Source of the DNA: Thermococcus sp. EP1
GTDB taxonomy: Archaea; Methanobacteriota_B; Thermococci; Thermococcales; Thermococcaceae
NCBI RefSeq assembly: GCF_001317345.1
Contig: NZ_JXCG01000004.1
Span: 124,001-188,000, forward strand
DNA: 64,000 nucleotides
Direction: 5' to 3'
Shown: positions 13,003-15,405 of the stretch, one piece after another
How the letters are laid out: every line of letters begins with the position of its first letter
Position numbering within the stretch: the stretch's first letter is position 1
The notes under the pieces: generated by a model
Database searches by the model: none
Told to the model about the DNA's origin: nothing
The model's input: only the letters and a program-made list of their open reading frames with translations
Translations under genes and position numbers: made by a program

Positions 13003-13221
13003 GATATCTTTCCCCGATCTCACCTTTTTGATATATTATCTGGGCTAATGCTCAGTTTTCAATATACCAGTTCTAAATGAAAACACCCTGTCTTGAGGAG
13101 GACTTTCAGAAGGTAATGAGATATTACTTATAGAAGTCTCTCTTCTAAATCCAACTAATAACTCGATGAGAGGTCTTTTCAATCTTCCGGTTTTGGTGCA
13201 CAGACAAAGGAGGTATTGATA
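13003..13221. other. Intergenic region before the secreted caspase-like gene
   Basis: 219 bases. It carries a strong ribosome binding site AAAGGAGGT (13207-13214) for the next gene and a TATA-like TTACTTATAG (about 13125-13134). A short open tail around 13090-13132 (CLEEDFQKVMRYYL then stop) may be a remnant of a decayed gene, which would fit insertion of the following gene here. Confidence 0.4.
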
Positions 13222-15405
13222 ATGAAAAAAGGTTGGATATTATTGAGCTTAATGATCAGTCTAAGCTTGATATTATCTTCAGTTACTGCACACTTCGATC
13301 CTCCGGGTTCTCCTGCGATCCAAGTAGACGTTTATCTTCTCGGAGTTTCCCTTAGCGAAGATATGGACGATGGGTGGAACGGCTATGCTGATATCGTAGG
13401 AAACTATAAAATAGTTCATAAGGGTCACGAAAGTAAGAACGGGAACATTGAAATGATATACTATGACTGGGACACTCTAAAAGGAAAAATGGGCTACATC
13501 CGCAAGAGACTACTCTACAGCCATAAAGAGTGTTCTCCACTGAATGAGATAACTATTGACGTGGATTTGGAGGAATACAACGACATTTTATCTAATAGTG
13601 CAATAGGGTCTGGTTCTATAAAGATAAGCAAGCCGGGGAAATACACAATAGATTCCGGAAAAGGAAAGCTATTAATAGAAGTTAAAACTACTCCAGCAGT
13701 TCTTTATTCCGATGAGTGCTCATATTTCTATGATCAACCAAATGACTATGCAAGCAGCATTGTGACGAGCTCTGGGGGATATGTTTACGACTGGCAACTT
13801 GCAAACATGATGAAGATGTGGATAGCCAAGAGAACGGGCTATGCGAATATGGTCTTCATCTTCAACCAGTGCTTTGGCGGAGGAATGATTGATGACCTTA
13901 AAGAAAAGCTTAAAGGCACAGGCGATGCGGCCTTTTTGAGCGCATCTAAACATGATGAACCTGCGTGGGGCCTTGCTGATGGGTACACACCAGCCAGCTG
14001 GCCCGAAATGGGGAGAAGAGGATTCACTCGACCTGAGGGTTACTACCCAAAGGAAATTGGAGAGGAGTTAGAAAGGACAGGTGGAGATGCCCCAACAATG
14101 AAAGAAATGGCCAAAAGAGCCGAGCAACAAGATGCACGCGGCCCCTATGGGTTAGGGTTCAAGGAAACTCCTCAGTACACTTCGGTGGGAAATGGAGATA
14201 ATATTAAGATAGGAAAAAAAGCTGATGGTTCAGATGTTGCAAGCAAGCATGCTATCCTCTTTGCTGGAGACGCGGATAGCAAGAGGCACTGGAACAACCT
14301 CGATAGAGCATATAAAGCACTTAAAAAACAGGGTTTTACGGATGCCAATATAATAACTCTGGCTGGAAATGGGAAAACCATGCCAGACGGCACAAATGTC
14401 CCGAACTATGTGGATGGGCCAGGGACAAAAAAGGCCCTTTTTGAGGCTATTATAAACGTGAGCAAAAAAATGAACAAAAACGAGCAGCTCATATTTTGGG
14501 TCTCTGATCATGGAAATAGAGAAAGGACAGAAACAGCCCTTGATAAAGCGATAAAAGATCCCGTAAAGCAGACGGTGCCCCCACGGGAGACTGCTAAAAG
14601 ACCCGAACAAATTTCTTGGGATCTGGATGAGGAATTTTTAAAAGTGATAAAGCTCGATCCGAACAACCAACCCTACGTAAGCATACTCGTTGAAGCAACT
14701 CCTGTGGTTATTGAATATGGAGAGTATTTCCTTGAGAATATAAAACTCTATGTAAATGAGAACGAGTTAGAGTTAGAGCTAATCGAGCCCATCATTGCAT
14801 ATGATGAGGAACCAGATTTGGATGCCTATGAACTTGTGTATCTTGTGGATGAGAGGATTCTGAGAGAAGAAAACCTCATTGAGGTTGAATGGTCAGGAAA
14901 TGCAGAAATGTTCGTTGAGTACAATATAATGGGGCTCATGATAAGCACAGGAGGCATAAATGAGCTTGAACCCGAAGTCATTGAAGTTGTTGAGGAACAA
15001 ACTCTCTTTGAGCTTCTGAGAGAATATGTGCCCATATACAATGAAAATGCCGATAATCTGCCAGGATTTATCAAAAGAATAGCTGGAAATGAGAGGATAG
15101 ACCTCGAGATAACGCTTGAAAACAAAAGCATCCTCAACATGGGCGTCGTGACGGAAAATGGCCGCATAGTGGAATTTTCAAAAGGCAAAATTTCAAAGCC
15201 GACGATGAGGGCATGGACAAGTGAAGACGTTGCAAGAAGAATCATAAACTCAGAACATCCTGTAAGTACTGGAGTAAACGCTCTAAAAATGGGGGAGATA
15301 AGATACAGCGGTGTCGGGTTTAGGAGAACTCTAAGGATCCTTGCTGTGAAAATAGTGATAAAAGTGTACAGGATCGTGGAGGTCATAGGAGATCTTTTTG
15401 GTTAA
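13222..15405 (+). CDS. Secreted caspase/legumain-like (clan CD) protein with separated Cys and His modules
   Basis: 727-residue exported protein with a Sec-type signal peptide (MKKGWILLSLMISLSLILSS, about 1-23). Module A (about 158-250) has a caspase-fold helix DWQLANMMKMWIAKR and strand, then NMVFIFNQCFGGGM with putative catalytic Cys217, followed by SASKHDEPAWG. The place where a catalytic His would precede reads SSGG. Module B (about 342-440) begins HAILFAGDADSKRHWNNLDR like the C13 legumain N terminus and ends IFWVSDHGNRE with putative catalytic His430, but no Cys follows (strand YVSILVEATPVV). The C-terminal 240 residues look like beta-sandwich domains and an amphipathic end. The order Cys then His is reversed relative to known clan CD enzymes. 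AAAGGAGGT supports the ATG at 13222. Peptidase activity is inferred, not shown. Confidence 0.75.
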   Translation: MKKGWILLSLMISLSLILSSVTAHFDPPGSPAIQVDVYLLGVSLSEDMDDGWNGYADIVGNYKIVHKGHESKNGNIEMIYYDWDTLKGKMGYIRKRLLYSHKECSPLNEITIDVDLEEYNDILSNSAIGSGSIKISKPGKYTIDSGKGKLLIEVKTTPAVLYSDECSYFYDQPNDYASSIVTSSGGYVYDWQLANMMKMWIAKRTGYANMVFIFNQCFGGGMIDDLKEKLKGTGDAAFLSASKHDEPAWGLADGYTPASWPEMGRRGFTRPEGYYPKEIGEELERTGGDAPTMKEMAKRAEQQDARGPYGLGFKETPQYTSVGNGDNIKIGKKADGSDVASKHAILFAGDADSKRHWNNLDRAYKALKKQGFTDANIITLAGNGKTMPDGTNVPNYVDGPGTKKALFEAIINVSKKMNKNEQLIFWVSDHGNRERTETALDKAIKDPVKQTVPPRETAKRPEQISWDLDEEFLKVIKLDPNNQPYVSILVEATPVVIEYGEYFLENIKLYVNENELELELIEPIIAYDEEPDLDAYELVYLVDERILREENLIEVEWSGNAEMFVEYNIMGLMISTGGINELEPEVIEVVEEQTLFELLREYVPIYNENADNLPGFIKRIAGNERIDLEITLENKSILNMGVVTENGRIVEFSKGKISKPTMRAWTSEDVARRIINSEHPVSTGVNALKMGEIRYSGVGFRRTLRILAVKIVIKVYRIVEVIGDLFG

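Follow-up and report, generated by a model that had tools for sequence, protein, structure and literature searches.

Within a 64,000-nucleotide stretch of the Thermococcus sp. EP1 genome (the window), one gene encodes a protein that carries the two catalytic motifs of a caspase-type peptidase in reversed order along the chain. A His before the Cys is part of the description of clan CD, and the order found here—Cys before His—is to our knowledge the reverse of that in every known member. The locus raises the question of whether a single caspase domain has been circularly permuted or whether two caspase-like domains, each having lost one catalytic residue, stand side by side. Our analyses favor the former: the protein is probably a secreted cysteine peptidase of the caspase–hemoglobinase fold, in clan CD and nearest to family C13/legumain, with a circularly permuted catalytic domain.

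Gene and Domain Layout

The gene (13222–15405, + strand) is one unbroken open reading frame. Its ATG at 13222 gives a 727-residue product, and an in-frame TTG upstream, at 13216, would give 729 residues. An AxxDxP start, directly after the hydrophobic N terminus, is conserved in all members of the family. The predicted layout is collected in Table 1.

Table 1. Predicted features of the protein, with coordinates given as positions in the window
Feature	Residues	Coordinates	Strand	Basis
Putative signal peptide	1–23	13222..13290	+	Hydrophobic N terminus MKKGWILLSLMISLSLILSSVTA, judged by eye; mature protein probably from ~H24
N-terminal all-beta C2-like domain	24–163	13291..13710	+	Eight strands in whole-protein model; Foldseek
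C-terminal half of catalytic domain, placed first		13747..14007	+	C13 profile positions 128–190 at residues 184–251
Helix 5 (TMKEMAKRAEQQ) and short strand near PQYTSVGNGD	263–331	14008..14214	+	Core model H134–143, E160–163
Connecting peptide KADGSDVAS and flanks		14215..14241	+	Sequence and alignment
N-terminal half of catalytic domain, placed second		14242..14526	+	C13 profile from position 2 at residue ~342; legumain alignment; core model
Beta-rich domain	~480–585	14659..14976	+	Whole-protein model; without family match
C-terminal SCP2-like domain	599–727	15016..15402	+	Foldseek to AF1534 SCP2-like structures

The catalytic core is flanked by two further predicted domains. Foldseek matched the N-terminal domain to C2 domains (probability 1.00, E ~1e-5), and the whole-protein model contains beta strands essentially exclusively between residues 30 and 160. 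Its acidic motifs DDGxNGxxD and YDxD, invariant across the aligned members together with Cys104, look like calcium-binding C2 loops. Sequence-profile searches with the C-terminal domain gave nothing in Pfam or the PDB; Foldseek matched its model to the AF1534 SCP2-like structures 3bn8/3cnu at a TM score of ~0.6. Profile matches occur in 131/394 genomes of the Archaeoglobus phylum, the majority of them falling in this SCP2-like module and lying mostly in stand-alone proteins of ~160–200 aa that are often secreted-looking (L052–L066); the one that was scanned has no Pfam family.

Order and Conservation of the Catalytic Motifs

Both motifs lie where the original prediction had placed them. Cys217 (codon 13870–13872) sits in NQCFGGG and is followed at residue 240 by SASKHDE; HAILFAG begins at residue 343, His430 (codon 14509–14511) follows in SDHGN, and no Cys lies downstream of His430. 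The first-placed half runs through helix 3, strand 4 with Cys217 at its end, helix 4, and strand 5 to SASKHDE, and the second through strand 1 (HAILFAG), R355–H356, helix 1, strand 2, helix 2, and strand 3 to D429–His430–G431. Each half keeps its part of the clan CD dyad pattern, in which a His-Gly closes one strand and a Cys closes the next: D-H-G follows strand 3, QCFGG follows strand 4, and both are essentially invariant.

We assessed conservation in an alignment of 21 rows, 18 of them distinct (three named MAG loci appear twice). Cys217 precedes His430 in every full-length member aligned, down to ~42% identity, so that homologues with the same order, proposed beforehand as a check, were indeed found. 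The invariant Cys and His residues across full-length members are Cys104, Cys166, Cys217, His244, His343, and His430, and the glycines around Cys217 and the DHG motif are likewise invariant across the family. A conserved His upstream of Cys217, which the original prediction had named as counting against its reading, is absent: none of the His residues that precede Cys217 is invariant among the full-length members aligned. R355–H356 is found in all members except the deep Archaeoglobales branch, R355 being the equivalent of legumain Arg44, and the residue two before Cys217 is Asn or Gln. Because of this residue and the loss of R355–H356 in the deep branch, Asn specificity should not be assumed.

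Profile Matches to Rejoined and Rotated Sequences

The native protein matches Pfam Peptidase_C13 at 31.2 bits, above the curated cut-off of 22.8, with the matching stretches inverted: residues 184–251 correspond to profile positions 128–190, and the chain from residue ~342 onward corresponds to positions 2–42. No match colinear along the profile was found in the native chain, and the two halves individually score modestly (21.6 and 16.2 bits). When residues 335–440 were fused to residues 184–262, restoring canonical order, the rejoined sequence scored 46.8 bits (E 3.7e-12). All ten members tested matched C13 after the same rejoining (best E 1.5e-13).

The profile of rejoined sequences also matches plant legumain-type enzymes. 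VdiPAL1, a peptide ligase/legumain of solved structure, aligned in two stretches, of which the second (query 86–167) spans the artificial junction from HG to beyond the Cys; the alignment sets DHG on TNHG and QCFGGG on EACNAG. With the profile in native order, the match of the N-terminal half to legumain is stronger, whereas that of the C-terminal half is weak and separate, and the order is inverted. A PDB sequence search with the single window protein gave no match, nor did searches of NCBIfam, PHROGs, and PADLOC. BURRH repeats and designed Pizza proteins, the best-scoring PDB profile matches, were rejected as repeat artifacts.

The rejoined profile further recovers secreted proteins of C14 type, with the motifs in canonical order, from other genomes of the window's phylum. 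Using a profile of nine canonical Thermococcales C14 proteins as a yardstick, we rotated the core in 5-residue steps. The native order gave two separate matches (best 10.4 bits), an inverted pair common to all members, whereas rotations cut at ~230–400 gave one continuous match of ~29 bits that covers both His and Cys (profile 56–146). In the controls, 1000 whole-core shuffles reached at most 5.7 bits and half-shuffled joins up to 21.5 bits; a join trimmed of its natural connecting residues (A+B) scored 20.6, no gain over the unjoined parts summed at 20.4. Given these last two results, the rotation gain depends on natural spacing.

Modeled Order of the Catalytic Core

The whole-protein structure model was weak (pLDDT 66, pTM 0.43), and for that reason the core was remodeled alone; from the whole-protein model only the assignments of the N-terminal and C-terminal domains were used. 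The AlphaFold model of residues 160–462, built from an 18-row alignment, is one domain (pTM 0.78, mean pLDDT 72.6). It shows helix–strand(Cys)–helix–strand–helix–strand, then strand–helix–strand–helix–strand(His). This modeled order corresponds to the caspase series of elements, opened between strand 3 and helix 3. In core numbering, the Cys half comprises H31–43, E50–55, H61–71, and E76–81, and the His half E183–189, H195–210, E218–222, H244–257, and E263–268, the latter at pLDDT ~90. Between them, residues 263–331 resemble by eye the helix–SHVMQYGD end of legumains; the short strand modeled near PQYTSVGNGD is likely strand 6, and the KADGSDVAS peptide would bridge the two original halves, C-terminal to N-terminal.

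A Foldseek search with the core model gave no significant PDB match (best E 0.045, probability 0.12). Because Foldseek follows sequence order in its alignments, this outcome would be anticipated were the permuted order missing from all solved structures; it agrees with that view but neither supports it positively nor proves the fold.

Alternative Readings of the Reversed Order

The reversed order could also arise from two half-dead caspase-like domains, one keeping its Cys and having lost its His (SSGG), the other keeping its His and having lost its Cys (VEATP), with a composite active site or none. SSIVTSSGG and PYVSILVEATP are superficially like a strand-3/DHG segment and a Cys strand, respectively, and in one distant member the Pfam C13 match extends upstream of the Cys half; that upstream stretch, however, has no C13 match when scanned alone, and the Cys half alone starts at profile position 128, past the His. 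Neither degenerate motif proposed in the original prediction held up. SSGG (residues 183–186), taken there for the expected DHG position, falls downstream of the His site in the profile alignments (position 128 onward), in the loop that precedes helix 3, from which the chain passes to the Cys strand, and VEATP was not detectable as a degenerate Cys strand against shuffled controls. Residues 24–183 and 441–530 scored at or below shuffles against profiles of the missing halves, and their profile–profile comparison with those halves gave probabilities near zero. Residues 24–160, moreover, are predicted to form a C2-like beta-sandwich, which leaves no room for strands 1–2 and helices 1–2. These results make two half-dead domains very unlikely; the strand predicted just ahead of helix 3 (YASSIV) might conceivably be a remnant of an ancestral duplicate. 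Together, the inverted C13 order, the gains on rejoining and rotation, the lack of a second copy of either half, and the beta structure of the N-terminal region support a single circularly permuted domain, the other reading that the original prediction had offered, and the modeled element order and family-wide motif order agree with it.

A permuted caspase-fold domain might still be catalytically dead and serve a binding or scaffold role, a reading encouraged by R–H of the likely S1 region not being universal and by decay of the gene in some genomes. We consider it unlikely, with Cys217, the DHG motif, and the surrounding glycines invariant in the family and with Cys217 alone among the invariant cysteines in lacking a likely disulfide partner. 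As for an assembly or gene-fusion artifact of this one genome, the assembly is a draft of 43 contigs, but the same order recurs in the other full-length members, whose genomes are independent and in several cases consist of a single contig; we give this explanation practically no weight. Of the readings considered, the most likely is a secreted cysteine peptidase that is active and represents a permuted form of the C13/clan CD fold.

Distribution and History of the Family

Members, intact or decayed, were found in 16/115 genomes of the window's phylum, spanning four genera, and full-length members in 5/57 genomes of the order to which the Archaeoglobus loci belong; named relatives belong to Thermococcus, Thermococcaceae, and Archaeoglobales MAGs. 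No relatives were found in viral contigs, phages, or plasmids. Three Archaeoglobales members are 42–46% identical to the others and retain both the order and the dyad. Across the deepest branches the core is ~50% conserved, compared with ~30% for the N-terminal domain.

Gene composition and alleles point to exchange. The peptidase gene has 42.7% GC and a GC3 of 0.40–0.45 compared with 0.25–0.35 for its neighbors, so the earlier impression of a less AT-rich gene was correct. An allele from another genus (L009) is a mosaic relative to the window protein (13312–15402), 96% identical in the core and 66% in the N-terminal domain, and its N-terminal domain is 88–91% identical to those of L011/L013/L015; this pattern points to recombination that swapped the N-terminal domain. 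On the grounds of the elevated GC3 and this mosaic, we suggest transfer and recombination between lineages, with no direction implied. With the patchy presence of the family added, the earlier suggestion that the gene was acquired is plausible.

In genomes of the window's genus, a BtpA gene and tRNA-Gly flank the peptidase gene. One relative (L125, G101:C1:267917-268361) retains only short gene fragments between these two neighbors, and in genome G093 the copy is broken by frame breaks (L020/L022). The locus is conserved within groups and differs between groups, and no functional partner common to all family neighborhoods was found. In three Archaeoglobales genomes (L121:5145-6440 (-), L122, and L123), a transglutaminase-like, lipoprotein-like protein with a weak EF-hand match directly follows the permuted peptidase. 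At two Archaeoglobales MAG loci (L004:2922-3731 (-) and L005:8291-9133 (-)), a related protein of 270–280 aa is encoded convergently just downstream; a Pfam scan of one of the two gave no match.

Proposed Mechanism

In the proposed scheme, the old ends of the domain, before strand 1 and after strand 6, would be joined by the short linker, and the new ends would fall between the His-bearing strand 3 and helix 3, so that the cut separates the catalytic residues. From end to end, the order would be helix 3–strand 4(Cys217)–helix 4–strand 5–helix 5–strand 6–linker–strand 1–helix 1–strand 2–helix 2–strand 3(His430). The halves would pack as one ordinary alpha/beta sandwich that brings Cys217 and His430 close together, and His430 would activate Cys217, as in legumain or clostripain. 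In clan CD, a His acts as general base and a Gly supports the oxyanion; here these roles would fall to His430 and Gly431, making Cys217/His430 the putative catalytic pair.

The window protein has three cysteines (104, 166, and 217). C104–C166 is a likely disulfide, which would leave Cys217 as the sole free thiol. The C2-like and SCP2-like flanks may bind calcium or lipid. Taken together, it seems reasonably probable that a naturally permuted clan CD peptidase, active with this Cys-before-His order, has become established and spread across two orders of hyperthermophilic archaea, that it constitutes a new family, and that lipid- or calcium-binding flanks could control assembly of the dyad.

Comparison with Known Clan CD Systems

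The caspase fold is among the most studied protease folds, and a natural permutation cutting between its catalytic residues would show that it tolerates new termini inside the active half. Automated annotation would give such a protein just a weak, broken C13 match. The enzyme would also offer a hyperthermostable system for studying dyad assembly and an example from nature to set beside rearranged caspases made by engineering. Our literature search on circular permutation in clan CD, legumain, caspase, and archaeal C13, incomplete in coverage, returned nothing describing a permutation that splits His and Cys.

The closest known enzymes are those of family C13 (legumain/asparaginyl endopeptidase and GPI8), which share the strand 1 AGxxxxxRH, the DHG motif, and a Cys strand that leads into G-G-M and SAS. 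The window protein differs in its swapped halves and its extra C2-like and SCP2-like domains, and the equivalents of Arg44–His45 are missing in the deep branch. Two residues before the Cys, legumain has a Glu (EAC), presumably E187, where the permuted family has Asn or Gln.

The same archaeal family also has canonical secreted caspase-like (C14) proteins (L101–L109), which occur in ~10/94 genomes of the window's family; in this sample, one of these genomes (G111) also has the permuted protein. They share fold motifs, secretion, and profile kinship across the His–Cys segment with the permuted protein, but have the canonical His-before-Cys order and lack the extra domains.

Type III metacaspases keep His and Cys within p20 in the usual order. 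In these algal proteins p10 precedes p20, a natural rearrangement within the caspase superfamily (PMC5756287). The permuted protein, in contrast, is cut inside the p20 equivalent, with His and Cys split over two swapped halves, and does not show the type III arrangement of a p10 ahead of an undivided p20 containing both residues. Globupain, a secreted C11 clostripain-like protease from Archaeoglobales with a His/Cys dyad and calcium-dependent activation (PMC10315481), resembles the window protein as a secreted dyad peptidase from a hyperthermophilic archaeon but belongs to family C11 and has the canonical order, H132 then C185.
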